DNA from: an uncultured Eubacteriales bacterium
GTDB taxonomy: Bacteria; Bacillota; Clostridia; Oscillospirales; Ruminococcaceae
Length of the DNA stretch: 40,003 nucleotides
Direction of reading: 5' to 3'
NCBI GenBank assembly: GCA_900319075.1
Contig: ONMZ01000029.1
Location: 1 to 40,003, forward strand
Of this stretch, positions 1,113-34,973 are shown one piece after another. How positions within the stretch are numbered: the stretch's first letter is position 1; every line of letters starts with the position of its first letter. The notes below the pieces were generated by a model. The model ran no database searches, was not told the origin of the DNA, and saw only the letters and a program-made list of their open reading frames with translations. A program made the translations under genes and the position numbers.

Positions 1113-1154
1113 GTGATGTGAGTAAGAATGTTTTTGAGCAAAGGAGCTGATTAT

Positions 1155-2234
1155 GTGGATCTGAATGAATATCTTTCCCACCATTTCGGTTTTCTCGTTT
1201 TGCTTGGCGGTCTTTCGATCGTTATAAAATCCGATGTACACCTTGATAGGCGTATGATCCATAATATTGCCCTGACCGAGGCGCTGCTCTTTTTGTATTC
1301 CATAACCTACCATATCGAAAGCTACCTTGGAAATCAGCCGGTGTATTCCCCCCTGCGTTCGGTGCTTTCTGCGGTGAACTATTCTCTTATCACCGTCGTT
1401 TTTGTCTGCGTGATAATGATCCTTTTCCCACAAAGAAAATTCTGGGTCTTTCTGCCTGCAGCTGTTAACGCCGCATTGTGCTTTTTGTCCCTTTATAATA
1501 ATTGGGTATTCTATATCAATGAGGATAACCACTTCCAGCGAGGCCCCCTGGGATATATTACCTATGTGGTCAATGCCCTGTATCTGGCGTATATTTTTGT
1601 CTGCCTTATCAAACGCAGAGAAAAAGAGTCTGAGGACTTTGTCCTTATCCTTTTTATGTCCTTTACCGCCGCTTTGTGCCTGGTAATGCCTTTGTGTATG
1701 ACCGACCAGGCGGATAACTGGTTCACAAATACCATAGCCATCGATGTCTTGCTTTATTATATCTTCCTGCTGCTGCAGTTCACAAAGCGAGATCCCCTTA
1801 CAAGACTCCTTAACCGCAAAAGCTATTATTCGGATATGGAAAAACTCGACGATACTATTACCGCTATAGTCGCAATGGATATGAACGGACTGAAAGATCT
1901 TAACGACTTTGAAGGCCATGCCGCAGGCGACGACGGCTTGAAGACCCTTGCTAAATGTTTCAATAATGCAGCTCGGTACGGACAGAGAGTCTATCGTATC
2001 GGCGGAGATGAATTTGCCGTGCTGTGTGTGGATAATTCAGAGGTCGATGTGAAAGATCTGGTGGAACGTATAAGAGCAAATATGAGCACCTGTAAGTATT
2101 CCTGTGCTATCGGCTATGCCATGAGAAACGGTGAAATGTCTATCGACCACCTGTACCATGCGGCTGATACTAAAATGTATGTGGAAAAAAGAGCCTATTA
2201 TCAGCAAAAAGCCCAAGAACAAAAGGATAGCTGA
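1155..2234 (+). CDS. membrane-bound GGDEF protein (probable diguanylate cyclase)
   Basis: The N-terminal half (about residues 8-205) has around six hydrophobic segments without an obvious known sensor domain. The C-terminal half is a GGDEF domain, entered by RDPLTRLLNR, with AMDMNGLKDLND and an intact RIGGDEF (GGDEF at residues 283-287). Family role: makes cyclic di-GMP from two GTP at the membrane. The inhibitory I-site RxxD expected five residues before GGDEF reads RYGQ, so product inhibition by that site is unlikely. I chose the GTG at 1155 because AAAGGAG lies 8 nt upstream (1140-1146); the in-frame ATG at 1128 has no clear RBS and sits within about 10 nt of the predicted transcription start. 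The gene is monocistronic, between its own promoter and a terminator. The signal sensed by the membrane part is unknown. Confidence 0.88.
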   Translation: MDLNEYLSHHFGFLVLLGGLSIVIKSDVHLDRRMIHNIALTEALLFLYSITYHIESYLGNQPVYSPLRSVLSAVNYSLITVVFVCVIMILFPQRKFWVFLPAAVNAALCFLSLYNNWVFYINEDNHFQRGPLGYITYVVNALYLAYIFVCLIKRREKESEDFVLILFMSFTAALCLVMPLCMTDQADNWFTNTIAIDVLLYYIFLLLQFTKRDPLTRLLNRKSYYSDMEKLDDTITAIVAMDMNGLKDLNDFEGHAAGDDGLKTLAKCFNNAARYGQRVYRIGGDEFAVLCVDNSEVDVKDLVERIRANMSTCKYSCAIGYAMRNGEMSIDHLYHAADTKMYVEKRAYYQQKAQEQKDS

Positions 2235-2479: not shown

Positions 2480-2508
2480 TTGCCAAATAAAGACTTTTAT
2501 TGTATAAT
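2480..2508 (+). promoter_or_regulatory. promoter of the giant-protein operon
   Basis: TTGCCA (2480-2485), 17-nt spacer ending in TG (extended -10), TATAAT (2503-2508). It is the only strong promoter I see ahead of the four same-strand genes at 2596-16684. The transcript would have a leader of about 80 nt. Confidence 0.75.
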
Positions 2509-2595
2509 ATAAGAGAGTAATTATGACCACAAGGGGGGAGTGTACCCTCTTGACGAAAAAGTCTTTAAAAACGAGCCGAAAGAGAGGTGAGCGTA

Positions 2596-3765
2596 ATGAG
2601 CGAAAGAACGGTCAGCGAAAACAATAAAATGTGGGAAGCAGCGGAGAAGATGGCGGAAAAAGCTGTGGCGAATGCAAAAGCAGAAAATGAAGAAGAACGC
2701 CGCAAGCAGAAAAAGCGGGTAATAAAGCTTGTGCTGCTGATGATACTTATTGCACTCGTAATGATATTTGCCTCGATAGCATGGTTTGCTATGAATAAAG
2801 CCGTGACCGCCGACACCATGGCGATAGAGGCGAAGGATTCCCCGTTTGAGATCGCAACCAAAGGCTCAAAAGTAAGATACGAAACAGAGTTTTCAAGCGC
2901 AGAGAGTGATTACACCGACGGCGAGGAAACAAATATATCAGGCATTGACCATATTACATCCAGCAATAAGCAGCAGATAAGGCTGAGATATGACCCGACT
3001 GAGCAGCAGCTTAAAAAAGAAGATGAGATAGGACCGAACAGCAGCGGTAAGATAGAGCTATATATCGTTCCTAAGGAAACAGGACCGCTCACTGTAAATC
3101 TTGATCTTAGTATCGTAGCTTACAGTGCGATAGAAAAGAAACAGGGCGAAACTACAACCAAAGAGATCATAAAGATGAGTAATCTTACACCGGAAAATTC
3201 CGGCATGACTCCCGCTCAGATAAGTGAGTGTGTCAGCGCTCAAGAGTTCCTTAACGGTCATATTCTTTTCTTCGAGGAGCAATCTTCAAGTTCTGCTTAC
3301 AGCTACGAAAAGCCAATTTCAAGCGGCGTCCTTGAACACTCATTCAATGCACAAAAGGATGTACCGGAGAAGATAATTATCTATTGGACATGGACTAACA
3401 CTTTAGGACAGATCGCATTGAAGAACAATGACAGCCAGCTGCGAAACGGAATCCCTGTTGTTAAGGATTCTGCAGCTGCAGAGGGTTCAGATAAAAGAAA
3501 AGTGATCAATTATCTTAAGGATAATAAGGAAAAGGTGTTCAAGCATCTGGATAAAGTGGCTCAGCTTACTGATGAAGAAAAAGAGGGCAAAACAGAGGAA
3601 CAGCTTGAACAGGCATACAGCGACAAGATCGATCAGAGGATCGAAGATGCTGCTGATTCCGAAAACTTCACTCTTTTGAGTGAGGGATACAATTCAGCCG
3701 ATTTTACTATCGGAACAAGTGTTGATTATTTTATCGTCGAGATCGCTGTATCAAAAGGCCAGTAA
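2596..3765 (+). CDS. exported/membrane-anchored surface protein, first gene of the giant-protein operon
   Basis: 389 residues; function not recognised. The first 38 residues are charged and helical (possible short coiled coil, EKMAEKAVANAKAENEEER). One strong hydrophobic segment follows (about 40-60), ending in SIAWFAMNKAVTA. This layout resembles the SipW-cognate/camelysin-TasA type of N-terminus seen on many clostridial surface proteins, in which a hydrophobic segment ends in an aromatic-Phe motif. The rest is extracellular-looking, rich in Ser, Glu and Lys, with predicted beta segments (KIELYIVPKETGPLTVNLDLS). A helical stretch around 300-340 (KVINYLKDNKEKVFKHLDKV) precedes the end, DYFIVEIAVSK. 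The ATG at 2596 follows AGAGG; a GTG at 2587 is possible. The next gene starts 22 bp downstream. Inferred role: subunit or assembly partner of the giant protein. Confidence 0.7.
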   Translation: MSERTVSENNKMWEAAEKMAEKAVANAKAENEEERRKQKKRVIKLVLLMILIALVMIFASIAWFAMNKAVTADTMAIEAKDSPFEIATKGSKVRYETEFSSAESDYTDGEETNISGIDHITSSNKQQIRLRYDPTEQQLKKEDEIGPNSSGKIELYIVPKETGPLTVNLDLSIVAYSAIEKKQGETTTKEIIKMSNLTPENSGMTPAQISECVSAQEFLNGHILFFEEQSSSSAYSYEKPISSGVLEHSFNAQKDVPEKIIIYWTWTNTLGQIALKNNDSQLRNGIPVVKDSAAAEGSDKRKVINYLKDNKEKVFKHLDKVAQLTDEEKEGKTEEQLEQAYSDKIDQRIEDAADSENFTLLSEGYNSADFTIGTSVDYFIVEIAVSKGQ

Positions 3766-3787
3766 ATTATGAAAGGAGGCGGAACAG

Positions 3788-4582
3788 TTGAGCAAGGTTT
3801 TTGACAGATTTGATAAATTGCCAAGAAAACAAAAAATGCAAATAGTTGTTTCTGTGACGCTGGCTGTTGCACTCCTTATAACTATTCCGTCGTATGCATG
3901 GTTCTATTCTCAGAGGAAAGCAGCGGAAATGTTCAAGGTCAAGTATCCGAATTCTCTTTATATCAATGCAGCGCACAGAGAAGACAGAAAGTTTTTTGAG
4001 CTGGCAGAAATAGACGTTGATGAGGAAGTCAACGGTCAGAGAATCTACAAAAAGAGATATGCTTTCAGCGTTTCCGGAGAGAGTACGGAGCATTATACGC
4101 TTCAGTTGGCGTATACGACCAATAACAAGTTCACATACAACATTTATAAGGCTAATGAGATAGCATCTTCTGCAAATGCTGATGCAGAGCATCTGATCCA
4201 TCCGAATGCTGCAGATGAAGAGAATGTGGGACCGAATGAGAACCAGCCGGAAAACAAGCTTATCTTCAATGATGAGATAGCAGCCGGGAATTATGCTTAC
4301 TATTCAGTCGCGGGCAAAAAGCTGACATTGACCTATAAAAACGGCACCGCAACACAGGCGATAACGAATCCTACTGACCCATATTATATAAAAACATATG
4401 GAAGCAATACTAATGTTCACGAGGATTCTGTTCCTGTCTATTGTCAGGTGAACATTGATACAAGTATAGATCCTAATACCAAACAGTTCTGTGACTACTA
4501 TATTCTCGAGGTTGAGTGGAATGAGAATTCCAAGAATAATAAAGAAACAGATTTGGTATATCTTGCTGTAGAGAGAAAATAG
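3788..4582 (+). CDS. exported surface protein with AWF-type N-terminus
   Basis: 264 residues; function not recognised. A short basic N-terminus (FDKLPRKQKMQ) leads into one hydrophobic segment (about 18-36) ending in PSYAWFYSQRKAAEMF, the same motif position as in the gene before it. The remainder looks like a compact beta-rich extracellular domain with many Tyr and Asn (YTLQLAYTTNNKFTYNIY). The start is a TTG at 3788 with AAAGGAGG ending 8 nt upstream. No competing ATG with an RBS exists near the start. It lies 22 bp after the preceding gene and 45 bp before the next, so it is almost certainly co-transcribed. It is most likely a second small subunit of the same surface assembly, which is inferred from context only. 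Confidence 0.7.
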   Translation: MSKVFDRFDKLPRKQKMQIVVSVTLAVALLITIPSYAWFYSQRKAAEMFKVKYPNSLYINAAHREDRKFFELAEIDVDEEVNGQRIYKKRYAFSVSGESTEHYTLQLAYTTNNKFTYNIYKANEIASSANADAEHLIHPNAADEENVGPNENQPENKLIFNDEIAAGNYAYYSVAGKKLTLTYKNGTATQAITNPTDPYYIKTYGSNTNVHEDSVPVYCQVNIDTSIDPNTKQFCDYYILEVEWNENSKNNKETDLVYLAVERK

Positions 4583-4627
4583 GAAATACAGGGACTGAAA
4601 AAATCCGAAGGAAAGGAGCAGTTGTTT

Positions 4628-5698
4628 ATGAAAAAGAAGATATGGACGATCATAAAGAAGCAGTGGCTCCTTATGCTTTCGGCGATAATGGCAGTTGCCA
4701 TGACCTCTATTATTGCATTTGCAGAGTATAAATCGGCAACAAGCAATATGCACAGGGTAGTGGTTTCTAAAAAGGCACCGGGAATGATGTTTTCATCCAA
4801 CTATCTTACAGTTGACGGCGATGGTATATTTCACCCGATTTATGTACAGCCCAAGTCAGATGAAAGGTATAGCAGCAATTACCTGTACATCTGGAACTAT
4901 AACACATCTGACATAGGCAGACGTTATCAGGAAAATATCAATTATAAGCTTGAATTTGTTCTTACCGATCAAGGCGGAAATCCGATAGATGCGTCTGCAG
5001 TCGGTACATGCAAAATACGTATCGTGGATCCGCTGAACAGACAAATAGAACTGAACGATACTAATCTCAGCAACAGTTTTAAAGACACCACACAGCAGAT
5101 CCTTGCAAAAGAATCAACACAAAACAAGTACACCATAAGCTTTTCTTCCAACTGGGATTTTGAAGCAAACGAGAATATCTGTGTCAGCATAAAAGCAACA
5201 CCTACTCAAAGAGATTCTGGTGGATCGTACATGGATCTTGTCCCGATATCCGGAGTTATTGGACTCAGAACTTCGTCGAGTACACAAGTCAACGGTTGGA
5301 AGGCAAGCATAAGTGAACAGCCGGAGGATGGCCAGACTACTCCTGCCCCTAGCGCATATGATGCTTACAATCTTGTTCTGACTGGTTCTGGTTCTGCAAC
5401 TATAACTGTAAAGTGGGATCCAACTAAGATAGAGCTTAACAGATTCTTCACCTCGCCTGCTGATCGTGTCTACACTTTTGCAAGCGGTGAAATTGATGGA
5501 CCAACACAGGATGCAAGTGGTTGGATGGTTATGACTATACATGCTGATACGGGTAATAACGCTCAGGAAAACAGAAACAGATATACCATCCAGATGTATA
5601 AGACCGGTGCAGAGGAACCTTCAGATTGGAGATTCTTTGCAAACAACAAGGCAGATGATGTTCAGGAAAATGCGTGGATAAGAGTAAATATTACGTGA
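4628..5698 (+). CDS. exported surface protein, third gene of the giant-protein operon
   Basis: 356 residues; function not recognised. A lysine-rich N-terminus (MKKKIWTIIKKQ) and a hydrophobic segment (about 13-32, LLMLSAIMAVAMTSIIAFA) ending in AFAEYKSATSN form a signal peptide or anchor. It lacks the exact AWF motif of the two genes before it. The mature part looks all-beta: NYKLEFVLTDQGGNP near 100-115, ENICVSIKATPTQ near 180, and a C-terminal beta domain containing TGSGSATITVKWDPTKIEL that resembles bacterial Ig/cohesin-like folds. That last resemblance is weak. The ATG at 4628 has AAAGGAG with 9-nt spacing; a TTG at 4622 would be too close to the RBS. The gene sits between two other exported proteins and the giant gene and probably shares their transcript. 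Confidence 0.7.
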   Translation: MKKKIWTIIKKQWLLMLSAIMAVAMTSIIAFAEYKSATSNMHRVVVSKKAPGMMFSSNYLTVDGDGIFHPIYVQPKSDERYSSNYLYIWNYNTSDIGRRYQENINYKLEFVLTDQGGNPIDASAVGTCKIRIVDPLNRQIELNDTNLSNSFKDTTQQILAKESTQNKYTISFSSNWDFEANENICVSIKATPTQRDSGGSYMDLVPISGVIGLRTSSSTQVNGWKASISEQPEDGQTTPAPSAYDAYNLVLTGSGSATITVKWDPTKIELNRFFTSPADRVYTFASGEIDGPTQDASGWMVMTIHADTGNNAQENRNRYTIQMYKTGAEEPSDWRFFANNKADDVQENAWIRVNIT

Positions 5699-5758
5699 AC
5701 TATTCTTACTTGATAAAAATGGAATTATGTATACCTGCAATCAGGGAGTTTGATGCAT

Positions 5759-8700
5759 ATGAATAAGAACTTGAAACGATTTTTAACAAGCAAAGTGTCA
5801 AAACGCATTGTAAGCGGTTTGACTGCTTTAGTGCTGGTATTCGGCACTTTGCCATTAAATATAATATATGATGAGCTGAGCAATCTAGACTTTACTTCGA
5901 TCTCAGTCGGAGCTGATGAGGAACATACTGATGAAGACGATCCTGTGTTTGTGCATGAAGGAGCTACAAATACAGTTAAGATCGCTCCAAACCAGTTGGT
6001 CGCATATTCTAAAAATGCAGTACGGTATCATAAGTATCACCAGTATGATGATCTTGTGATTACAGCGAAAAGCGGAACGTCTTCGAAGGTGTTTATCGAG
6101 GGCTTCAAAGGACTGGGTACTGAGGGAAAACCATTTTCTGGTTCGATAAGTATTGACTCAAATAACAGTATCGTTCTAAATCTCGATGCTCCGCTGTTCA
6201 ATTATGTAAAAGACAGCGTAACTCTTAGCAATAATGGCAATGCATTTGAAATATCAAGAGAGTATACTCAAAACGAGATAGATTCAAAAGAAGAAAACCA
6301 CATTGATAAAACCCCACTGTTAGCTACATATGTTGTTCACGATGATGAAAATCCTTCTGCAACATGGACGGTTGGCATTACACAGCCTTCGGCGGGTGAC
6401 AATCCATATCTTGGTGATTTCGGCGGCTTTATCGGAACAATGCAGGAAGGATCCGAGCTGATCATCGATGTTACTATGGACAAAACCGCTGAGGATACAA
6501 CTGCACGAAATGTATATGGCTACAACAGAGATCTTGGATTGCTCTGCGGAACAATGGAGTCAGATTCTAAGCTTACAGCAAAGCTGACTAGTAACAGAGG
6601 AGTATCCGATATTGTTGTTGATAATAAGTCAGCTTCCGGTCATGTAGGTGGACTTGTCGGACAAATGAGGCCAGGTTCGGTGCTTGATTACACGGGATCA
6701 AATGTTCAGGCGAGTAGCGAGGATATAAAGACGTCTGCCACGGAGTCCTATGCCGGTGGTGTAGTAGGTTATAACGACGGCGGTACAGTTAAAATGACTT
6801 TGCCGAGTGGAACAACATCATACCCTGTAACTCAGCACATTGAAGGTACAGGTGGTGCAGGTGGAGTCTATGGATACTATGCTCCCGGAGCTATAGACGG
6901 TGACGACGCAGATATCAATGAATTAAACAGTAAGTTTGATACAAGCAAATTCAGTATAAACTGCCAGGTAAACGGAGAAGGATTTGACGGCGGTGTTTTT
7001 GGTGTGCTCGATTGTACACATAATTATTCTTTCACTGGTACTAATACTATCACATCTGCTCACAATTCGGGTTCAGTTGATGGTTATGGCGGACTCATTG
7101 GTAGATATAATAACGAGGATTTGTCGAATTCATTAACAATAGGTGGCGTGACGGCTGTATCTTCTAAAACAACGGCGAGCTATTACGGAGGAGCTATTGC
7201 TGCCGTATCGTCAAGTGACGAACTTGACGGAGGTTCGTGCTATGTAAAGTTCGATGGCTTTACGGCTAGTGCGAGTGGAGCAGACGCAATGACCTTTGGC
7301 GGACTTGCTGCAAAAGCAGATAACGCTTTTATTGATGCGAATAATGTAACTATAGGTGTGTCCGGTGAACACAAGTTCCAAGGTGGCGCTATTGTCGGCA
7401 GCCTTGAGTCAGGTGTACTCAGACTGACTGGATATACGGATATTACAAATGCTGTTGCCAACGCAGCTTCCTATGAGGCCGGGCAGATAGTTGGTTATCG
7501 AAATAATGCGCTGATCTTTGCTTACTCAGGCTCTGGAAGCGATATTTGGAAACTCAAAAGACCTAACACTTCTATCCAGGTCGATGACATAGGCTCTTGG
7601 GGTGAAGTTGTAAGGTTCAATGCCAAGGATACGTCTAACGATGGAGAAACACAATATGGATTTGGTTCTGATACAGAAGTTGTCACTGTATACGAAAACG
7701 AGCACTATGCTTCTGTTTCAGGCTTACCCGAAACACAGTATGACGATGAAACCAGCGATTCATATATACCTGTATCATCATCATCGGATTTTGCAAAAGT
7801 TGCTTTAAATATGCAACTCTATGATAGCCAGTCTGACGGCGTTTTACAGTTTGCAAGCGGTGAAGATCCATCAAGTTCAAATATTAAGCTTGGTGCTGAT
7901 CTTGTTCTTTCGGGCTTGGGTATCAGCAGCTTTACAAGAGACAATGCTAAAACTGACAGCACAGAGGCCGAAAAATGCGTATATTATGGAACGTTTGATG
8001 GTGCGGGTCATAAGGTGACGCTTGCTATCGGTGAACCATACGGCTATCACGGTAATACCGCTATCAGTGACCATTCGGTTGAGGGAAGCGGAAAGATATA
8101 CCGCCATAGGTATAATGGTTTATTTGGTATTACCGACAGTTCTAATGAGTATACTGCTCAAAATGTTACTTTTAAAGGCAATATTGACGTAAATGCAAAG
8201 ACTGTTATGTATGTTGGCGCTCTTGCAGGTCAGGCAACCGGTACGTTCAAGATTGACAGTGTCAATATGGTTGACACTGTCAGCGAAAATGCTCACGAAA
8301 CAACATTTACTGTTGATGGTGATACAGAAGCATATGTTGGCGGTTTGCTTGGCAAAGCAGCAAGCGGTATTGAGACTTTAGAAGTAAACAACTGCAATGT
8401 GAAGTGTAATATCAATAGTAGCAATAGCAAAGATGGAAGCTGTTTTGGTGGAATTATTGGTTGGATCTCAAAAACATCTCAAAGTTCCGATTGGAATTTT
8501 GATACCATTACCATAAGCGGAACAATATCCAGATCTGGTAATCATGAGATTAATAAGCTAGGTGGTCTTGTTGCTCATATTTCAGAATATACAAGCGGCA
8601 AAAATGATCGTGAGATCGCTCTTACAAATATTCATGTAAACGGTCTTTCTATAAGTGTAGCTGGTGCGGGTTCAACCGAGAGTGGTAAAAACAGCTCAGT

Positions 8701-11700
8701 TGGCGGTGTTCTTGGCTATTCATGGCTGAATGTTAATCCGACATTTCACAATGTCCAAGTCAGCGGCAGTTCAGTAACGCTTACTGAAACAGCAAGCAGT
8801 AAGGGTGATCTTGCTGGTCTGGTTTATCAGGGAACCGGACACTGGATTATTGAAACTTCAAGTGCTGATGTCGAAGTTCCTGATATTGATGAAGAGACAG
8901 GAGAGCAAAAGAAGGACGAAGAAACTGGAGAACCTTTAACCACTACTGTTACTGAATATTATGATGGAATAAAGATCAATAGTATTGCTGTTTCATCAAC
9001 AAATGCTAAGTCATTCGGAATGATAATCAACAAGGGCATGGCAGATAATTCAGCAATTTTTCTTGATGTTCGTGCAGATGATACCACTAACAGTAAAAAA
9101 AGTTATTTGATATCATCAGCAACACTGACTGGTCTCGGAAGTTGTATTTTCGACGAATTGGTTGCTTATAGTGCTACGGATGGAAAGGTGCTTGAAAATG
9201 GTCAAGGTATTGTTTCCATTCATACAGGATTAACCACCGATGGAACAACCTCAAGCAAGACCTATCAGGCTCAAACAAGCAGAGGTGCTGTTCCTAACAA
9301 CAAGACAAGATACTATTATGATCTTGACACAATAAGAGAAGCCTCAGGTGATAAAGACCTGCTTATGAGATGGGCTTTGAATCTTTATGCTCATAAGAGC
9401 CTGAGCGATTATTTTACAACTTCATGGGTAACTGATACCACCAATAATGTTTCAACTATCCCTTATGGTATTTATGACATGGAGAATTACAGTTGGTACC
9501 CAATCAACATCAGCGGAACTGTTACAGTTAATGGCGAATTCAAATTCTATAACGATGAATTTGAAAAGAGTGAAGCTGCAAAGGGCGGAACATATCCATA
9601 TACTCGCACTTCTCTTTATGACAGTACAGCTGATAAAGCGACACAGCACCACCTTATGCATTGTGGCTTGTTTTATAATGTTTCAGGAGGAGTAACCGTT
9701 GGCTCATCAGACATTACTCTACAGGGAAATGTAGGTAGATTCGGCAAAAAAACAGAATCAAGTGACAGCAAAGTATCAGGTGCATTGATTTGTGGTACAA
9801 TTAAAGGTAGTTCAACTTCAAGCATCGCTACGCTCTCAACAAGCGGTAATATCTTTCTTGACGGAATCTATGTTCATGACCATAACAGCAATAGCTATGC
9901 TCCTTTGCTTATTAATAAAATTGGAGAGTTTTCAACAGTTGTTGTAAAGAACGTTAAGGCAAAAACTTCATCCTCTTATGAGGCGAATACTAAGGCTGCA
10001 AGCAGCTTGATTGGTGATGTTGGTTCTTCGGGAGCAACCAATATCAATCTTACTTTTGCAGATATTCAAATCGATGGTAGAAAAACGAGCGGTGCATATA
10101 GTCTTGACAGTGTTTATAATACCAAGAGTTCGCTGTTTTACAGGGCAACACTGCTTAATACATTTAGGTACTCTTCAGGTTCAGCAACGTATGATTTCAA
10201 CATTGGCGATGACTGGAAGACTAGCGGAGATACATATACCAGAACCGGTGCAAAGGGTGTTACCTATGGTAGCGAAATTGATGATGCCAATTCTCAGCAC
10301 CTCGGCAAGGAGTACTGGTATAAGGACACTAATGGAGGAATATATACAAATTACAATACTCCCGGAGCTTCCGGCACAGGTGCACCGTCCCCAGCTATAA
10401 GCTTTGCGGGCTTTCTTCCCTATGTCTATGATAAGTGTACAGCATCTGACATCGATACTGCAACAGACAAAAAATACCAGATAAAAGTTAACTGGGCTGA
10501 AACAAAAATGACAGGCTGCGGAACATACAATGATCCGTATATTATTACTAAGAGTGAGGATCTTCAGAATATATCAAACATTTTAAACGGAACTCATAGT
10601 ACAAGTGTAACAGTAACTTTGCCTAACCTGAACAGCGGAAACACTACTTGGAATGGAACGCAGTTAAAACAGAAGAAATGGGATAACTACGGTGATGCTG
10701 TATATACTTATAACGGAAGCAGCAATTATTACTGTAGAGGTACGAGTGGATATACCACGAAAGAAGTTCAGAATTATCTTGCAGGTGCGTATTATAAAAT
10801 TGAAAAGAATGCGCAGATCACCTTACCATCCGACTATAAAGGTTTAGGCCAAACAGATACTGAAGAAGCTATTTTCCGTGGTGTTATTGTCGGTAATGGT
10901 GAAACTATAACACTTACTGGGGATAGTCCGCTTATTTACCAAAGTAACGGATGTGTTGTTAAAGGGCTTAATATAGTTGTAAGTAATTCTGAGATTACTA
11001 TTGATCAAAGCTCACCTACGGCTTTTAAATATGGTACTTCTTCTGGCAAAGCCTATGGCGCTGTTATAGGTAAAATATTGGGTGGAGATAACATCATTGA
11101 TGATGTTACTGTATCCTTCGGAAACAGCAAGATAAAGCTTAAAAACAACGCTGCTCAGTCCATTCCAGTAGGTGGTTACGTTGGCGTAGTTGTTAAGGGT
11201 TCGCTCATATTCAGAGGTATGGAAGGATACCGTAAAAGCGAATCGCTTTGGAACAGTATCTCGGGTCTCGGTGCGACTACAGTTAAAGATAACAGCGGCA
11301 ATACCGATCTGCTTTATACAGATGCAGTCAATAAGACACCGAATATGAAGTGGCTTTATGTTAATCCGATCGTCGGCAGAGTTATCAATGCAGCTGTATT
11401 CACGGAAGGCGATGCTTACCGTCCGTTTGAAAACGGTACCCGTGAGGGCGTTTCTGCGGTGGATACTCAATATGAAAAGTATAGCCAGCCTGTAACAATG
11501 CAAAATGGCACAAAGAATTATTCTATTGCGGATATCACAGATAAGCTGGATATGTTCGTGCTGAATGACATTCCGGAAAGAACATCCGATTGGACATCAA
11601 CACAAAATGATCAAAAGGATTTCAGACATTACCTCAAAATTGACATCAGTATTCCAAATGCCCAGTCATTGTATGTTATGTCACTTGTAACACAAGCCGG

Positions 11701-14700
11701 ACTTGGAGGATCAAACTATCTAGAGAGATCAAACAGAAAAACGAATCATAATGATTCAAATTACTATCCGTCAACATATAATAAGCCGATAGGTGGATTC
11801 TTGAATACTGGTTCTTGGGGAATAGCTCCGTATTATTCATATCGATCTACGCATGTCGGACAGTATACTTATGTGGGCAATTGCGGAGGAAGCAGTGTTC
11901 CCGAACCGACAGGAAGCGAAGCTTGGTATAGTGATTACAGCAACGCCAAAACCGATAATGCTCAGTTTAATCGTAGCGGAGGAACAACAGAGCACTCATG
12001 GCAGCATGGTTTGGAGACTATTCCGTATTTAATCGGAAAATACACTCCTAAGATTAATAGTGATACAACAGGTCATACAGCCAATGCATATGATTCTGAC
12101 TATTATACCAATATAAATGGTAAAGAATTGGGGTATATAGCGTTTTGTCTGACTCATCAGTATTCTTATCTGAATCTTAAATTTTCTGCCGACAACAGCA
12201 TATACTTTATGCCAGATGGCTTCCGTGGTCTCGGTTGCTTGGGTTATAACAATTTTATAGGCGGCGGCGGAACCGGATGGACAGAGACTTATCAGGATAT
12301 GATAGTTCATCTGTTCGGTATAGAAGGAAACGGTAATACTGTTAATCTGAATATGAGCCTTTATAATTATTATAAAATCAATAATAGTTATGATGCCTAT
12401 GCTGTTAACAATGCTTGTCCGGGATTTGGATTTATTGATGCTATGATGCAGAATAAAACCTGTGCGGTCGGGACTGCTGTAAACGGCAGATATGACAATA
12501 TTGATGTTACTGACAATGATTATAAAATCAGTAATCTTACTCTTACAGGCTCGGTAAAGTCTGTGGTTATTGATGCATCTTCAGGAAACAATTATCCTAT
12601 GAACAACGATTTAAACAACAACTATTTCGTTGCTGTTGGTGGTTTGGTCGGTAATGTTGTTTATCGTGCAAACAATTCTGACATATTTAAAGTTGCTATA
12701 TCTGACATCAATCTTTCGAATCTGAAAGTAAACGGTGTCAGAAACACCGGCGGACTGATGGGATATAACCAGTCGGAAAACAATGCCGATTCCAAGACTA
12801 CTATCACGAATATCACCACATCTGACCTTGAAGTTTCCTCGGGTATTTACACCGGAGGTCTTATTGGTTGTTCAACTCAGACAGCTCTTGATATCAGCAA
12901 TGTTACCATAGCCGAGCCTAACATCAAAACCTATCTGAATTTTGCAACTACGGCTGATTTGACAACGAATGCCACGGGCGGTATTATCGGTTATGCAGAG
13001 ACCAACACCAATAACGGCGCTGTGTATCTGCATGATATAACCATAGGTGCAGAATCCCCTACAAGTAGCTATTCGGCTTATATAGGTTATAATGAGCCGG
13101 GAACGTATCCGACTTCCGCCACGGATAGCAATAAGAAGTATTATGAAACCGTTCGAGTCGGCGGATTGATCGGTCAGGTTGCAACAGATTCTTCGACCAT
13201 GTATAATGCAGGGACAATTGATTATAATACACAGATAACGAATTGTCAGATTATCAATGTTGATCTGTATGGCCACAGAGTCGGAGGAGTGATAGGATCC
13301 TGTGAATCTGATAATAGTGCAATAGGAGTATCTGATACTATAGTAAAGAACACTCAAGATCATACAATTTATGGTCACAAGCTTGCTAATGATTATAGAG
13401 GAGCAGGTGGAATTATTGGTTATTTGCCAAATAGCAAAAAGTTTGTTGTAAACAACTGCCTTGTTAAGGGCTATAATATTACCAACCTCAGACGTGCAGG
13501 TGGTATTGTTGGTTATAATGCACAACCAATCACAATCAACAATACCGAGGTAAATGCTTTAGCACTCACGTCAAATACGGCAGTTGGAGGTCTGGTTGGC
13601 TATTTGAACAATTCTTTGAACGGCTATAATATACGCACTGATGATCTTAAGTTTACGCCATTTTCCAGCGATGTAAGCTATATCACTGGAAATACGACAA
13701 AAGGAAATGTAAGAGGACATATCGTTGGTACAAACAATTCAAAAACAATCAAAATTGCAGGGTTCTCTCGTAATAACTTGAGTTCAAGCTATGATTGCGG
13801 AGCTAATCGTATGGTGGGCAATTATAAAGATGATACCGATACGACTGTAGCTAGATACGGTTCCGGTGGCTATGTTATCTTTGCAGATTATGAAGGAAAG
13901 AGCCAGAGTAGTGACAAGAGCATTGTGGCTTCAGATGTGAACAGCACGGCTAACGTAGCTGTGAATACATATTCAATTGAGTCAGCTTCTGCTCAGGATA
14001 ACAATTTCCCATATGTAACCACAAGCCCGAAGAGAAATATAGCAACCGGTCAGTTCCTTACAGGAGATGCAATAGGCAAACTGACCTATCAAGGATCTGT
14101 ATTTAGGGAAATCGTTGATGACAGCTATTATAGCGAGAGCCCTGTTTTGGGTGCATATAAGAACATTCCGGCTAAAAATATATTATCTGATCAGCTCAGC
14201 CTTATTCAAAGCAAATTCTCAACATCAAGTTCAGAGTTTACGCTTGTGGAATCGAGCAATATGAACTTCCCACTACTTGTTGTGGATGATAATGATTCTA
14301 AAACGGTCACAGATATGATCAATAATTATATCGGTGTTCTGACTAATACCAAGAGTTACAATTTTGCTCTGGATGTAAGCGGAGTATATAAAGTGTCGTT
14401 GTTTAGATGTACATATAACGTTCGAACATCGAAGTTTGATGTTGACACATCAGCACCAAACACAGCTTGCCTAAAGAAATTCGATTATGGAAACGAAAAG
14501 AGATTCCGTATGACACCAAGTGATGTTGACAACGGTAACCTTACCTCTGCTCAGTTCTCACTGATAGATGTTCAGTTCTTTGATCCATCAGATACTGAAA
14601 AAGTGGCATACCATCTGTACGTTCCGGTATATGTAAAGAAATTGTTGGAGTTCAAGTTCGATTCAGCACTTCTTTCAAACACGGAATATTATCCATCAGC

Positions 14701-16684
14701 TTATGAAGGTCTGTCGGGCAATACGGTATTTGAAAACCTTGGAACACCTGTTACAATGAGATTTGAGTACGATTATAAAAGAGATGCAACAGAATGGGGA
14801 AATGCCATTAATAATGGCGAAGATGTGTACCATAACATCAACAAAGTAATTGATGTTACTAAACATCATACGCAGACAAATGTTTGGCCATCCGGCACCA
14901 AAATGGTTCTTGTAGATGCTAATAACAAAGATAAGTACTATTATCTGAATACAGCTCCTACAGGCAGTCAAATCGATCTTCATAGTTTCCAAAATTCTGG
15001 CGTAAGCTTTACTCCTGTGCCGTTGCAGGACCTGATGACGATGACCATTGCTCAGAGTAATTCTGGTACGTTGACGACCACTACTGAAGAAAATGCGACG
15101 GTTAAGTATGGCAACAATTATTACAGACCTATGACAGATGAGGAAAAAGCTGAAACGGATACGACAAGTCCAAACTACGTTGCTCCTTCAAATAGGTATA
15201 CGGCTAGTGTTTCAAAAGTGAATCCCGAGAGCTATTACCTGACTATATTCACGCCGAAGAATGAGGCTGATACAACAATTTATCACTATGAGTTGTCGAC
15301 TGTAAGTAAGCTTCCGAAGGTTGATGAAAATGATAAGGGTTGGAGACCTAATCAGGTCGATAAGGACTACAATGCGACGGTTGGTTTGTATACAGGAAAT
15401 CTGTATTCAATAAGTATTGCTATGAACGTAGCTTCAAAAGAAGGCCGTTTAGATATGGACAGCAATAATAACTACCTCGATGTTACAATGACATCTACGA
15501 TCACGCTCAACGGAAGCACTGAGGTAAAGCGTGGAGTTGCAAGCAATATGCTCAGCAATGCGGATAGTTCTTCGATCCATCAGGTATTCCTTGCAACATA
15601 TGATATGAAACCAGCAACCGGTTCGTCAATAGTTGGTGTTCAGCTTAAAGCTAAGCCTAATGTAAGTGTTTCTTCATATCAAATGTATGGAGGATCTTCT
15701 GCCCAGGGAACAGGTAAGGACATCAGGGATGGTTATGAGATTACTGAAAACTATATCGAGCTGAAAAACAATGAGGATCTCATTGATGATATCAGCTTGG
15801 AAACGAATGGATTTGCAGTAACAATGGCAACCGCATTCAGGCTGAGCTATCCTCTTGCGGATGATCTGTCGATACAATTCCCACTCAACGAGAATCCAGA
15901 GACATCGACAGGTAACATAGGTACCAGGGTGATCGGTTATTCTAACATTTCTTCATCTGCTGAAAGTGCACCATACAGCTCAACGTCTAAAAAGGATGAT
16001 AGTCAAACAAGGCGTTACTATGTAACCGCACAGACAAAAGCAACTCTTGAGTACAACGTTGTTGAGTCATCCGGAAATATAGCAGGACCTTTCAGTGATC
16101 TTGGAATCAATGCGCAGGAAATGGATGTAGATGATCAGGGAAATGAAAAGATCAAAACGAAATCACTGATCCATACTCAAGCAAAATATGATACATCCAA
16201 ACTTAAAGAACGCGGCGATTATATCGAAATGACGTTGAAGATTTCGAAGAAGAGTGATTACGATACTGCTCTTAAGCTCAGCGATTATGTTGAGAATATA
16301 AAGATCACGGGCCTTAACGGAACACCGCTGTTCAATCAGGCTACCGATCCTGATGGAACTGTAAAGTACGATTCCGAAAACAAGGTAGTAATCAAGGTGA
16401 CAAGAGAGGATAATGCGTATAAGATCAGGGTACGTAAAGATCAGATCCAGACGATCGGTAACGCATCAGATGGAGTTTACTATGTACCTATAGAATTTGA
16501 AGCATTTACGGGAGATGCTAAGTTCAATTCTCAGAGTCGTAGCTATTCTAATTATAGGATGACCCTTGAAATGAAGATGTATCAGACAGATGATGCTGTT
16601 GAGAATCAGTATCTTATTCCAACAAAAGCAACTGATTACGTTGTTTATACAAATGCAAAGGTATTCCCGGATGTAGTACATTGA
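5759..16684 (+). CDS. giant secreted GLUG-repeat beta-solenoid surface protein (3641 aa)
   Basis: A 10.9-kb uninterrupted frame. The N-terminus is a signal peptide: basic MNKNLKRFLTSKVSKR, then VSGLTALVLVFGTLPLN. Repeats of the GLUG type (xGGLxGxxxxG, about 30-45 residues apart, e.g. VGGLVGQMRPGS, TGGLIGCSTQT, AGGIIGYLP) form four blocks near residues 220-560, 785-990, 1765-1815 and 2290-2620. Family knowledge: GLUG repeats build beta-helices in adhesins and secreted surface proteins. A GCGTYNDPYIITKSEDLQ segment near 1586 is the usual lead-in of such domains. Residues from about 2700 to the end are beta-rich without GLUG and end in YTNAKVFPDVVH. I see no LPXTG motif, dockerin or SLH domain, so the way it is held on the cell is unclear. 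Likely an adhesin or matrix fibre. ATG 5759 has AGGGAG 10 nt upstream; ATG 5753 is an alternative. It is last in its operon. Confidence 0.85.
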   Translation: MNKNLKRFLTSKVSKRIVSGLTALVLVFGTLPLNIIYDELSNLDFTSISVGADEEHTDEDDPVFVHEGATNTVKIAPNQLVAYSKNAVRYHKYHQYDDLVITAKSGTSSKVFIEGFKGLGTEGKPFSGSISIDSNNSIVLNLDAPLFNYVKDSVTLSNNGNAFEISREYTQNEIDSKEENHIDKTPLLATYVVHDDENPSATWTVGITQPSAGDNPYLGDFGGFIGTMQEGSELIIDVTMDKTAEDTTARNVYGYNRDLGLLCGTMESDSKLTAKLTSNRGVSDIVVDNKSASGHVGGLVGQMRPGSVLDYTGSNVQASSEDIKTSATESYAGGVVGYNDGGTVKMTLPSGTTSYPVTQHIEGTGGAGGVYGYYAPGAIDGDDADINELNSKFDTSKFSINCQVNGEGFDGGVFGVLDCTHNYSFTGTNTITSAHNSGSVDGYGGLIGRYNNEDLSNSLTIGGVTAVSSKTTASYYGGAIAAVSSSDELDGGSCYVKFDGFTASASGADAMTFGGLAAKADNAFIDANNVTIGVSGEHKFQGGAIVGSLESGVLRLTGYTDITNAVANAASYEAGQIVGYRNNALIFAYSGSGSDIWKLKRPNTSIQVDDIGSWGEVVRFNAKDTSNDGETQYGFGSDTEVVTVYENEHYASVSGLPETQYDDETSDSYIPVSSSSDFAKVALNMQLYDSQSDGVLQFASGEDPSSSNIKLGADLVLSGLGISSFTRDNAKTDSTEAEKCVYYGTFDGAGHKVTLAIGEPYGYHGNTAISDHSVEGSGKIYRHRYNGLFGITDSSNEYTAQNVTFKGNIDVNAKTVMYVGALAGQATGTFKIDSVNMVDTVSENAHETTFTVDGDTEAYVGGLLGKAASGIETLEVNNCNVKCNINSSNSKDGSCFGGIIGWISKTSQSSDWNFDTITISGTISRSGNHEINKLGGLVAHISEYTSGKNDREIALTNIHVNGLSISVAGAGSTESGKNSSVGGVLGYSWLNVNPTFHNVQVSGSSVTLTETASSKGDLAGLVYQGTGHWIIETSSADVEVPDIDEETGEQKKDEETGEPLTTTVTEYYDGIKINSIAVSSTNAKSFGMIINKGMADNSAIFLDVRADDTTNSKKSYLISSATLTGLGSCIFDELVAYSATDGKVLENGQGIVSIHTGLTTDGTTSSKTYQAQTSRGAVPNNKTRYYYDLDTIREASGDKDLLMRWALNLYAHKSLSDYFTTSWVTDTTNNVSTIPYGIYDMENYSWYPINISGTVTVNGEFKFYNDEFEKSEAAKGGTYPYTRTSLYDSTADKATQHHLMHCGLFYNVSGGVTVGSSDITLQGNVGRFGKKTESSDSKVSGALICGTIKGSSTSSIATLSTSGNIFLDGIYVHDHNSNSYAPLLINKIGEFSTVVVKNVKAKTSSSYEANTKAASSLIGDVGSSGATNINLTFADIQIDGRKTSGAYSLDSVYNTKSSLFYRATLLNTFRYSSGSATYDFNIGDDWKTSGDTYTRTGAKGVTYGSEIDDANSQHLGKEYWYKDTNGGIYTNYNTPGASGTGAPSPAISFAGFLPYVYDKCTASDIDTATDKKYQIKVNWAETKMTGCGTYNDPYIITKSEDLQNISNILNGTHSTSVTVTLPNLNSGNTTWNGTQLKQKKWDNYGDAVYTYNGSSNYYCRGTSGYTTKEVQNYLAGAYYKIEKNAQITLPSDYKGLGQTDTEEAIFRGVIVGNGETITLTGDSPLIYQSNGCVVKGLNIVVSNSEITIDQSSPTAFKYGTSSGKAYGAVIGKILGGDNIIDDVTVSFGNSKIKLKNNAAQSIPVGGYVGVVVKGSLIFRGMEGYRKSESLWNSISGLGATTVKDNSGNTDLLYTDAVNKTPNMKWLYVNPIVGRVINAAVFTEGDAYRPFENGTREGVSAVDTQYEKYSQPVTMQNGTKNYSIADITDKLDMFVLNDIPERTSDWTSTQNDQKDFRHYLKIDISIPNAQSLYVMSLVTQAGLGGSNYLERSNRKTNHNDSNYYPSTYNKPIGGFLNTGSWGIAPYYSYRSTHVGQYTYVGNCGGSSVPEPTGSEAWYSDYSNAKTDNAQFNRSGGTTEHSWQHGLETIPYLIGKYTPKINSDTTGHTANAYDSDYYTNINGKELGYIAFCLTHQYSYLNLKFSADNSIYFMPDGFRGLGCLGYNNFIGGGGTGWTETYQDMIVHLFGIEGNGNTVNLNMSLYNYYKINNSYDAYAVNNACPGFGFIDAMMQNKTCAVGTAVNGRYDNIDVTDNDYKISNLTLTGSVKSVVIDASSGNNYPMNNDLNNNYFVAVGGLVGNVVYRANNSDIFKVAISDINLSNLKVNGVRNTGGLMGYNQSENNADSKTTITNITTSDLEVSSGIYTGGLIGCSTQTALDISNVTIAEPNIKTYLNFATTADLTTNATGGIIGYAETNTNNGAVYLHDITIGAESPTSSYSAYIGYNEPGTYPTSATDSNKKYYETVRVGGLIGQVATDSSTMYNAGTIDYNTQITNCQIINVDLYGHRVGGVIGSCESDNSAIGVSDTIVKNTQDHTIYGHKLANDYRGAGGIIGYLPNSKKFVVNNCLVKGYNITNLRRAGGIVGYNAQPITINNTEVNALALTSNTAVGGLVGYLNNSLNGYNIRTDDLKFTPFSSDVSYITGNTTKGNVRGHIVGTNNSKTIKIAGFSRNNLSSSYDCGANRMVGNYKDDTDTTVARYGSGGYVIFADYEGKSQSSDKSIVASDVNSTANVAVNTYSIESASAQDNNFPYVTTSPKRNIATGQFLTGDAIGKLTYQGSVFREIVDDSYYSESPVLGAYKNIPAKNILSDQLSLIQSKFSTSSSEFTLVESSNMNFPLLVVDDNDSKTVTDMINNYIGVLTNTKSYNFALDVSGVYKVSLFRCTYNVRTSKFDVDTSAPNTACLKKFDYGNEKRFRMTPSDVDNGNLTSAQFSLIDVQFFDPSDTEKVAYHLYVPVYVKKLLEFKFDSALLSNTEYYPSAYEGLSGNTVFENLGTPVTMRFEYDYKRDATEWGNAINNGEDVYHNINKVIDVTKHHTQTNVWPSGTKMVLVDANNKDKYYYLNTAPTGSQIDLHSFQNSGVSFTPVPLQDLMTMTIAQSNSGTLTTTTEENATVKYGNNYYRPMTDEEKAETDTTSPNYVAPSNRYTASVSKVNPESYYLTIFTPKNEADTTIYHYELSTVSKLPKVDENDKGWRPNQVDKDYNATVGLYTGNLYSISIAMNVASKEGRLDMDSNNNYLDVTMTSTITLNGSTEVKRGVASNMLSNADSSSIHQVFLATYDMKPATGSSIVGVQLKAKPNVSVSSYQMYGGSSAQGTGKDIRDGYEITENYIELKNNEDLIDDISLETNGFAVTMATAFRLSYPLADDLSIQFPLNENPETSTGNIGTRVIGYSNISSSAESAPYSSTSKKDDSQTRRYYVTAQTKATLEYNVVESSGNIAGPFSDLGINAQEMDVDDQGNEKIKTKSLIHTQAKYDTSKLKERGDYIEMTLKISKKSDYDTALKLSDYVENIKITGLNGTPLFNQATDPDGTVKYDSENKVVIKVTREDNAYKIRVRKDQIQTIGNASDGVYYVPIEFEAFTGDAKFNSQSRSYSNYRMTLEMKMYQTDDAVENQYLIPTKATDYVVYTNAKVFPDVVH

Positions 16685-16705
16685 TATTAATAGCTTGTCT
16701 CTTTT

Positions 16706-16740
16706 GAGGCTGCTGCTTTAATGCAGCAGCCTCTTCTTAT
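16706..16740 (+). terminator. terminator of the giant-protein operon
   Basis: Perfect 11-bp stem GAGGCTGCTGC / GCAGCAGCCTC with a 6-nt loop, followed by TTCTTAT, 22 bp after the giant gene's stop. It is the only strong terminator in this unit. Confidence 0.85.
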
Positions 16741-16825: not shown

Positions 16826-16881
16826 CCTCCTTGATATACAATGTAATAGGCTACCAACCGTATTACAAAAAATCAAGGAGG
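16826..16881 (+). promoter_or_regulatory. tnpA leader hairpin that masks the ribosome binding site
   Basis: CCTCCTTGAT (16826-16835) is perfectly complementary to ATCAAGGAGG (16872-16881), which contains the Shine-Dalgarno site of tnpA. Inside it TGTAATA (16842-16848) pairs with TATTACA (16861-16867). This matches the known control of IS200 transposase translation by a leader stem-loop. Confidence 0.7.
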
Positions 16882-16890
16882 GATCACCAG

Positions 16891-17370
16891 ATGGATAATA
16901 AATCTAATGATACATATAGTTTATCACATACAAGCTGGAAATGTCAATATCATATAGTGTTTGCACCAAAGTACAGACGAAAAGCTATCTATGGAAAACT
17001 AAAACGAGATATCGGCGCAATACTGAGAGAGTTGTGCGAAAGAAAGCATGTGAGTATAATAGAGGCAAATGCAATGCCCGACCGCATACATATGTTAGTG
17101 GAGATACCGCCAAATCAAAGGATAAGTGACATTATGGGATACCTGAAAGGGAAAAGCACGATGATAATATTTGAAAGATACTCCAACTTGAAATACAAGT
17201 ACGGAAACAGGCACTTTTGGTGCAGAGGGTATTATGTCAGCACAGTTGGCGGAAACAAGAACGGTATAGCAAAGTATATCCGAGACCAGGAAAAAGAGTA
17301 TACGATGTATGATCAGATATCTTTTAAAGAGTACCAGGATCCGTTTATAGATGATCGAACAAAACATTAG
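16891..17370 (+). CDS. tnpA: IS200-type Y1 transposase TnpA, HUH motif altered
   Basis: 159 residues, a normal length for the family. It opens with the usual SLSHTSWKCQYHIVFAPKYRRK, followed by IYGKLKRDIGAILRELC, PPNQRISDIMGYLKGKST, GNRHFWCRGYYVSTVGGN and IAKYIRDQEKEYTMYDQ, all in family order, and ends with the common DPF..D. tail. The catalytic tyrosine region (KYIRDQE) is kept. The metal-binding His-x-His normally read as DHIH is DRIH here (CGC codon), so one of the two metal ligands is missing and strand cleavage should be impaired. The start is the ATG at 16891, 9 nt after AAGGAGG; upstream in-frame codons lie inside the regulatory hairpin. Family role: single-strand transposition through a 5'-phosphotyrosine intermediate. 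This copy is probably inactive. Confidence 0.88.
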   Translation: MDNKSNDTYSLSHTSWKCQYHIVFAPKYRRKAIYGKLKRDIGAILRELCERKHVSIIEANAMPDRIHMLVEIPPNQRISDIMGYLKGKSTMIIFERYSNLKYKYGNRHFWCRGYYVSTVGGNKNGIAKYIRDQEKEYTMYDQISFKEYQDPFIDDRTKH

Positions 17371-18154
17371 CGTAGAATTTCCCAACTATATAGAGGAATT
17401 CCCGTCAAGACCTGTGGATCAGGAAGGAACAACTTATGGTGTAAATGTTGGTGTTTCCACTAATATTTCTTACGATCAAGACGATATAATGTACTCCGGT
17501 AAGAAGACCTATACGGACGGTACAAGGTATCACGTTGAAAAATCCAATTCAGCTACCTTGAATTATGAGGCAAACGCTGAACGGGACGAATACGATTCGG
17601 TTGGTAATGCAAGTTACAACCGTTCTCGTCTGGGAAATAACGGACTTGACAGGTATCTTACCTGCAAATGGCCTGACGGAAGCCAGGGAATGCTGATAAA
17701 TGCCACCGCAAAGTATAATGCCAATGCAGTAACAAATTACGATGATGCCTCAACAGAGGTGTATACATTAACACTGGAAAAGAAAACAGATGTTAAAGAA
17801 AACGGTGTTATAACGAAAGTTGAATACAAGCCGGTGGAGATCGATAAGTATCTGAAGAATGTTAAGCTGTTTGGCGGCGATTCGAGTGTACCCCTTACGA
17901 ATCAGTCTTCTGATAACAAGAGATATGTATACTCAGAGCCGAAATCCTCAGCAAGAGTGGATGAAAAGATGTTCACTATCGACACCTACTACGAAGTCCT
18001 TACCGGACCCGAGTTCCACGATTATGCTAACTATAGGGTAGTACTTGAGGTCCAGCTTAGAAACAGTTCCGGCGGTGTTATATCAAACAGCACGCAAAAG
18101 AATCATATTATCTACACCAACGCCAAGATCCATCCGGAGGTCATACAGCGTTGA
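17369..18154 (+). pseudogene. C-terminal remnant of a second giant surface protein
   Basis: About 261 codons homologous to the end of the giant protein at 5759-16684. The two line up from LSIQFP / ISVEFP through SATLNYEA / KATLEYNV, an IDKYLKNVKLFGG / LSDYVENIKITGL region, DYANYRVVLEVQL / SYSNYRMTLEMKM, to the ends IIYTNAKIHPEV and VVYTNAKVFPDV. The N-terminal portion, presumably thousands of bases, is absent. The frame is abruptly replaced by the tnpA gene, whose stop codon overlaps the first homologous codon. The only ATG in frame (17351) lies in the tnpA tail, so a functional start is unlikely. It is either a duplicated neighbour truncated by IS-linked deletion or a recombination leftover. 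The retained C-terminus and its own terminator argue for a once complete gene. Confidence 0.8.
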
Positions 18155-21734: not shown

Positions 21735-21766
21735 ATTAGATGATGAGAGTTTAACTCTTATCTTAT

Positions 21767-21856
21767 ATCTTAACGGGAGCTTGTGCGTACAGGCTGAGAA
21801 AAAGGTGTTACCTTTGACCGTAGACCTGATTTGGGTAATGCCAACGTAGGAACATG
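21767..21856 (+). promoter_or_regulatory. TPP riboswitch (thi box)
   Basis: The consensus elements occur in order: GGGAGC, AGGCTGAGA, GACC, GACCTGAT, GGGTAATGCCAACGTAGGAA. It lies between a sigma-A promoter and thiW. Binding of thiamine pyrophosphate is expected to favour the terminator at 21876 and shut the operon. Confidence 0.95.
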
Positions 21857-21875
21857 ATGTTATTTCGTCCATGTG

Positions 21876-34870: not shown

Positions 34871-34939
34871 GCCGAGAGGAACTCCGGGAGGAGCTTGGCG
34901 CTGTATTTTGGAAAGTTCATTGCATATTGGGGTGCAATG
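34871..34939 (+). promoter_or_regulatory. structured 5' leader of pilin 1
   Basis: Two hairpins: GCCGAG / CTTGGC (34871-34899) with an inner CTCC/GGAG, and CATTGCA / TGCAATG (34918-34939). It may stabilise or regulate the mRNA. It does not match the cyclic di-GMP riboswitch classes I know. Confidence 0.45.
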
Positions 34940-34973
34940 CTTTTATAAAAATTTTATTATGGAGGGATTTTCT

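Follow-up and report, generated by a model that had tools for sequence, protein, structure and literature searches.

A conserved four-gene operon for three small exported proteins and a giant secreted protein in Ruminococcus and relatives, and its probable tie to a SipW/McrB-like module

The DNA analyzed here (the window) is a stretch of 40,003 nucleotides from an uncultured Eubacteriales bacterium of the Ruminococcaceae (assembly GCA_900319075.1, contig ONMZ01000029.1, positions 1 to 40,003 of the forward strand). It contains four intact open reading frames (ORFs) arranged head to tail on the plus strand: three genes for small exported proteins, termed w1 (2596 to 3765, 389 amino acids), w2 (3788 to 4582, 264 amino acids), and w3 (4628 to 5698, 356 amino acids), followed by a gene for a giant secreted protein (5759 to 16684, 3,641 amino acids from the ATG at 5759). 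This layout, with gaps of 22, 45, and 60 bp, confirmed a preliminary description of the locus, which had also assigned the four genes one promoter and one terminator. The terminator was borne out. An intrinsic terminator with an 11-pair stem (8 G-C pairs) lies after the giant gene (16706 to 16733, plus strand), and none of the three intergenic gaps contains a terminator-like site; in the region, such sites numbered 18, compared to 11.7 ± 3.9 in shuffled sequences. The promoter, a sigma-70-like TTGCCA-17-TATAAT upstream of w1 (2480 to 2508, plus strand), matches the consensus at 11 of 12 positions and is one of the three best-scoring sites in the region. It is kept as a candidate only, because promoter-like sites were not more common than in shuffled sequences (59 versus 52.2 ± 8.9).

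The four genes are one real, conserved unit. Searching by sequence, w2 was found in 7 of the 197 genomes of a family sample and in 19 of the 29 genomes of the genus, and a profile search detected it in 3 of 391 genomes of a class sample. These counts include the source genome each time, and the genus count derives from a single-sequence query, which may have failed to detect w2 in some of the genomes scored as negative. Scanning species genomes with an alignment of w2 yielded 119 relatives, 80 of which were kept as loci (mean length, 16.4 kb; many are truncated at the end of a contig), with identities to the window's w2 reaching down to 28%. The relatives reside in Ruminococcus (R. flavefaciens, R. 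albus, and R. bicirculans), Lachnospiraceae, and Eubacterium xylanophilum, many of them from ruminants, and also in genomes labeled Christensenella, Bacilli, and Acholeplasmatales. Gene w1 adjoined w2 in 73 of 77 testable loci, w3 adjoined w2 in 75 of 76, and the giant gene followed w3 in 70 of 71, with median gaps across the 80 loci of 19, 31, and 33 bp. "Testable" excludes loci at a contig edge (one for w1 and two for w3), and at 2 of the 80 loci (L095 and L140), there was no w2 ORF among the nonoverlapping calls. An adjacent w1 call was missing at L074, L090, L097, and L142, and a w3 call at L123; in some of these loci, a longer antisense ORF had been kept in place. The sole locus without a giant after w3 was that of R. 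bicirculans, whose genes are arranged as w1-giant-w2-w3 (w1 recognized by eye).

Since these loci had been picked by w2, an independent search of the genus was performed, using a segment of 800 residues of the giant as the query. It returned 18 of the 29 genomes, and all 18 were positive for w2. In the only w2-positive genome that was giant-negative (G221), the operon lies on a 3.8-kb contig which ends near w3. The situation that the preliminary description had named as speaking against it, small genes usually occurring without a giant, is at odds with both sets of counts. The fixed association which it proposed holds in Ruminococcus, Lachnospiraceae, and other genomes, and since the four genes travel together across genomes, a dedicated assembly is well supported. 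Some genomes hold more than one copy of the operon genes. One w2 copy is located on a plasmid of R. albus 7, predicted to be conjugative (NC_014825.1, 144701 to 145501), and a second place was found in the same record.

None of the four products had a Pfam or NCBIfam relative over the cutoff, and the same was true of a set of pilin-like proteins, introduced below, in NCBIfam. A sequence search of the PDB with w1 to w3, the pilin-like set, and the giant gave nothing usable, the best match being FliL over the w1 leader (E value of 0.022). Each of the small proteins possesses a single N-terminal hydrophobic segment (residues 38 to 70 in w1, 15 to 39 in w2, and 12 to 34 in w3), which closes in AWF in w1 and w2 and in AFAEY in w3. 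The AWF motif shared by two small proteins had been recognized before but was taken for an ending of the protein, whereas it terminates the N-terminal segment. SipW-type peptidases cut TasA-like proteins at sites of this kind. The w1 protein starts with a long basic N terminus and continues into a beta-rich body and a helical part; w2 consists of a SipW-type leader and a beta-rich body; the body of w3 displays a conserved FSSN and conserved W, N, and G positions and belongs to no recognized family. A C-terminal LPXTG-type motif with a hydrophobic tail was found in none of the three.

To characterize the leaders across loci, proteins from 69 of 78 w2 loci, 66 of 71 w1 loci, and 66 of 73 w3 loci were aligned, each set together with the window's own protein. 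All 70 aligned w2 proteins share W38, with A37 and F39 conserved in nearly all of them, and W63 is invariant in the 67 aligned w1 proteins. The leader motif [AS][WFY][FYLM], scored within residues 16 to 110, occurred in 69/70 w2, 50/67 w1, and 21/21 pilin-like rows; w3 was regarded as mostly devoid of it because only 8 of its 67 rows carry the motif. The w1 leader is homologous to the pilin-like profile A5 (97.6% probability over 58 columns). Structures predicted for w1 and w2 (mean predicted local distance difference test scores of 91.7 and 88.2, respectively) weakly resemble donor-strand pilins, with the TasA fiber among the weak structural matches; a family missing from these match lists is not thereby excluded. 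Such models are compatible with small proteins that anchor or polymerize the giant. Sequence homology to TasA or camelysin was not detected: for w1 to w3, neither Pfam nor NCBIfam gave a TasA-related family, and the PDB profile matches included no TasA chain. A fold shared by the three small proteins was considered and rejected: in pairwise profile comparison, w1/w2 and w2/w3 align in their leaders only, and w1/w3 over 13 columns at 21.9% probability. A single-sequence search of the genome contigs with w3 produced 15 pattern matches, none of which is a relative.

The giant begins with a signal peptide that looks ordinary by eye. Complete-looking giants in the fetched loci range from about 3,250 to 3,860 residues. 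Thirteen of them, including that of the window, could be aligned end to end, the other 12 being 29 to 62% identical to the window's protein, with conserved stretches along the whole length and a C-terminal YTN[AS][KR] motif (YTNAK in the window). The pattern GG[LIVF][VILAF][GA] occurs 18 times in the window giant, compared to a mean of 0.34 in shuffled sequences (maximum of 4 in 1,000). The repeat pattern is therefore real, as previously claimed, but it had been described as four separated blocks of GLUG-like repeats, and we find three dense blocks and not clearly a fourth. These GGLVG-type blocks span residues 222 to 518 (6422 to 7312), 861 to 986 (8339 to 8716), and 2294 to 2614 (12638 to 13600), all on the plus strand. 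Spaced GGLVG-type motifs in blocks are also a feature of Glug-repeat surface proteins (PF07581), from which the giant differs in scoring below the family cutoff of 20.5 bits at all six matched places (best, 17.1 bits). Membership in Glug was consequently rejected, with none of the 13 giants matching the Pfam family at an E value of ≤0.1, and we would call the repeats Glug-like motifs only. A putative beta-solenoid is plausible. No known cell wall anchor was found, in agreement with the preliminary description: a domain search detected no SLH, dockerin, or anchor domain, and the one loose sortase-like match (NPETS at residue 3379) is not C-terminal, has no hydrophobic tail, and does not represent a sortase signal.

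The C-terminal domain of the giant (residues 3366 to 3641; 15854 to 16684, plus strand) is homologous to an orphan piece of 267 amino acids further downstream (17351 to 18154, plus strand), with 23.7% identity and an E value of 7.6e-7. This piece is 69% identical to residues 3452 to 3720 of the giant at locus L056 and appears to be a relic, the C-terminal part of a second giant from another lineage. An IS200-type transposase gene (16831 to 17370) lies directly before it. A comparable orphan piece was found downstream of the giant in genome G158 (L017, 4516 to 5511, minus strand). It is possible that such pieces are remnants or donors for tail exchange.

Overall, the interpretation given in the preliminary description is partly supported. 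What it missed is the likely processing machine, with SipW peptidases and an McrB/McrC-like pair, which is encoded on another contig of the source genome (C22, at about 346.8 to 355.5 kb). There, an intact module comprises genes for a pilin-like protein, an EAL-domain protein, a small protein matching the pilin-like profile, SipW peptidase 1, a DUF2357 protein, SipW peptidase 2, a small membrane protein, and an McrB-like AAA+ protein. Within the source genome, the pilin-like profile matched three products, namely, the main pilin-like protein, the small module protein, and the w1 leader. Both SipW peptidases, which are of the archaeal/ER-like type and flank the McrB/McrC-like pair, score over the TIGR02228 cutoff and below the cutoff of 190 of the Bacillus SipW model NF046067. 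The McrB-like protein matched PDB McrB 6hz4 (E value of 0.0011) and the McrB model NF008457 (E value of 6e-4, far under the equivalog cutoff). Its Walker A (GISGTGKT) and Walker B (LLDEMN) motifs are kept in 15/15 McrB-like proteins examined, and its signature GTANNDDST is compatible with both the NxD and NxxD spellings. A hydrophobic membrane-type stretch (approximately residues 47 to 86) is followed by a stretch that looks charged and heptad-like by eye. The McrC-like protein matches DUF2357 (PF09823; 28.7 bits versus a cutoff of 23.3) and has, as judged by eye only, a long K/E/R-rich stretch; compared with the PDB, it gave no match at an E value of ≤1, and no nuclease was recognized. The EAL protein scored over its family cutoff. 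Two features canonical for EAL proteins, the glutamate of the EAL motif and the sequence DDFGTG, are missing in 11/11 EAL-like proteins examined, so these are probably sensors or scaffolds rather than active phosphodiesterases.

At three loci, a single chain of approximately 1,000 residues (984 to 999; L256, 11463 to 14462; L257, 6934 to 9888; L258, 9828 to 12824) unites the DUF2357 protein with SipW peptidase 2, with DUF2357 near residues 65 to 167 and the peptidase near residues 767 to 961. In the genus, 10 of 29 genomes contain a second SipW match in a frame of 986 to 1,009 residues, and DUF2357 was confirmed in the 3 that were examined. The fusion argues that the McrC-like protein acts together with the signal peptidase. 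Several w2-negative genomes have different leader-bearing genes next to the module. At L250 (15679 to 19900), the module is followed by pilin-like genes, a SipW gene, and a BspA-type repeat frame of at least 1,407 residues, which encodes a large leucine-rich-repeat product. No leader-bearing cargo was seen after the module at L252, L256 to L258, and L266. As the module is accompanied by differing leader-bearing genes or by none, its cargo may be exchangeable.

The evidence that ties the operon to the module consists of linkage, co-occurrence, leader homology, and the fusion. An McrB-like AAA+ gene, together with some or all of its module neighbors, lies near the operon in 14 of the 80 loci. 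Assuming one module per genome of ~2.5 Mb, about 0.8% of loci, or 0.64 of 80, would be expected to have it within 10 kb of w2 by chance; the difference corresponds to a P value of about 4e-15 under independence, which these loci do not have. One genome (G480, L259) contains the whole module in one stretch with w1 to w3 and the giant. The same arrangement in one stretch is present in a second (G111; L265, with the giant in L015), and R. bicirculans appears to hold the full set (L202 and L074; DUF2357 gene recognized by eye). Within the genus, the McrB-like gene was present in 18 of 19 w2-positive genomes, the exception being G221, which is 70% complete. This co-occurrence proves little alone, because 7 of the 10 w2-negative genomes also carry the gene. 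Outside the genus, it was found in 6/6 w2-positive genomes tested versus 27/391 genomes of the class sample. A gene for a membrane diguanylate cyclase (GGDEF) lies just upstream of the operon in the window (1128 to 2234), and a terminator-like site at 2263 to 2291 belongs to it. As a conserved link to the operon, diguanylate cyclases were dropped, since GG[DE]EF genes occur in only 8 of the 80 loci. Neither the window nor 7 of 11 selected loci contain a cyclic di-GMP (c-di-GMP) riboswitch at the gathering score.

Taken together, we consider it moderately probable that the products of the operon are the exported components of a surface fiber or sheath which is processed by SipW peptidases and organized by an McrBC-like membrane complex. 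The fiber, the leader cutting, and the protein contacts are what we infer. SipW peptidases would cut w1 to w3 at the leader and release a free N-terminal strand. The three proteins would be pilin-like subunits (adaptor, tip, or anchor) linked by strand exchange to the main pilin-like subunit. The giant, for which the main structural or adhesive part of the fiber is the best reading, would be secreted by the general route and held by w1 to w3. At the membrane, the McrB/McrC-like complex would organize export and assembly or supply the power for them, and the EAL-like protein, possibly a c-di-GMP sensor, would act as the gate. More tentatively, this may represent a new class of extracellular fiber, in which an McrBC-type motor repurposed from restriction drives assembly at the membrane, some species have the signal peptidase physically attached to the McrC-like subunit, a degenerate EAL protein is the gate, and the cargo can be exchanged: w1 to w3 and the giant in Ruminococcus and relatives and, elsewhere, for example, the BspA-type protein at L250.

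Part of the same evidence also fits a looser arrangement, in which the giant is a secreted wall-associated adhesin or matrix protein, w1 to w3 are its uncut, membrane-anchored chaperones or anchors, and the module is a separate pilus that merely shares the leader type. Operon and module are unlinked in the source genome, 7 of the 29 genus genomes carry an McrB-like gene without a detected w2, the module has other cargo in some genomes, and the bodies of w1, w2, and w3 are mutually unrelated. Nevertheless, the homology of the w1 leader to that of the module's pilin-like protein opposes such a separation, and we regard it as rather unlikely. Less likely still is an ordinary strain-variable surface locus, with genes kept together for coexpression only and forming no physical complex. 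Such a locus would fit with the orphan C-terminal pieces that follow intact giants (in the window and at L017), with the multiple copies in some genomes, and with the two sites in the plasmid of R. albus 7, but order and near-complete presence over deep divergence exceed the needs of coexpression, and conservation extends over the entire giant. That the McrB/McrC-like pair serves defense and guards the surface operon as a decoy, receptor shield, or contact weapon is very improbable: despite the similarity to McrB and DUF2357 and the relatives treated as type IV restriction systems in passages of PMC11090510, the N-terminal membrane-type stretch of the McrB-like protein, the lack of a nuclease match in the McrC-like protein, and its fusion to a signal peptidase all speak against it.

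The fiber reading bears comparison with several known systems. Passages of PMC11090510 briefly name CoCoPALM, an uncharacterized clade in which an McrB-like GTPase is fused to an FtsB-like part and which is deferred to later work there, and consider its signal peptidase proteins to be pilus assembly factors. The module resembles it in its McrB-like protein with a membrane stretch, its DUF2357 McrC-like protein with a long charged stretch that looks coiled-coil-like by eye, and its signal peptidases, and shows three of the six listed features (McrB-like domain, DUF2357, and signal peptidases). The remaining features are an FtsB-like part and a coiled coil in the McrC-like protein, for which candidate stretches were noted by eye, and an NxD signature instead of NxxD, where the sequence fits both spellings. 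It differs in that those passages name no exported product, while the module described here is associated with w1 to w3, the giant, pilin-like proteins, and a degenerate EAL protein and includes McrC-SipW fusions at some loci. The tapA-sipW-tasA operon of Bacillus subtilis, a SipW-dependent fiber system presented in passages of PMC9674648 that contain no McrBC-like pair or giant, likewise combines a SipW-type peptidase with exported partners, and the TasA fiber is a weak match to the w2 and w1 models; however, w1 to w3 have no Pfam or NCBIfam relation to TasA, and the McrBC-like pair and the giant are additional here. In Clostridium perfringens, sipW-bsaABC specifies an extracellular polymer that depends on SipW, the operon encodes additional putative exported proteins, and BsaA alone polymerized when made in Escherichia coli (PMC7395162); neither a giant nor an McrBC-like pair is mentioned in the passages concerned. 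The literature searched on the operon, on SipW systems in such bacteria, and on McrBC with SipW or signal peptidases (subscription papers being mostly outside the search) contained no description of the four-gene unit, which is undescribed within that scope.

Beyond the operon, the window contains a gene for a protein with a Shedu SduA C-terminal domain (96 to 893; Pfam E value of 1.9e-30) and a partial tRNA match in Rfam (960 to 1014; 31.8 bits, model positions 10 to 63), where ARAGORN finds none. A thiamine pyrophosphate (TPP) riboswitch (21763 to 21869) precedes genes that resemble thiamine genes by eye. Two neighboring type IV pilin-like genes (34908 to 35477 and 35643 to 36137) are nearly identical in their first parts and differ in their second parts; the former matches Pfam N_methyl, and the latter was judged by sequence.

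R. albus, R. flavefaciens, and R. bicirculans are fiber-degrading bacteria of the rumen and gut. How such organisms hold plant fiber and each other is only partly known, and the four-gene unit is a widely kept surface system with named cultured carriers. For the CoCoPALM class, for which passages of PMC11090510 name no product, it provides a concrete candidate substrate. The McrC-SipW fusions offer a testable case of an McrBC-like motor that would act in surface assembly rather than in DNA cutting.
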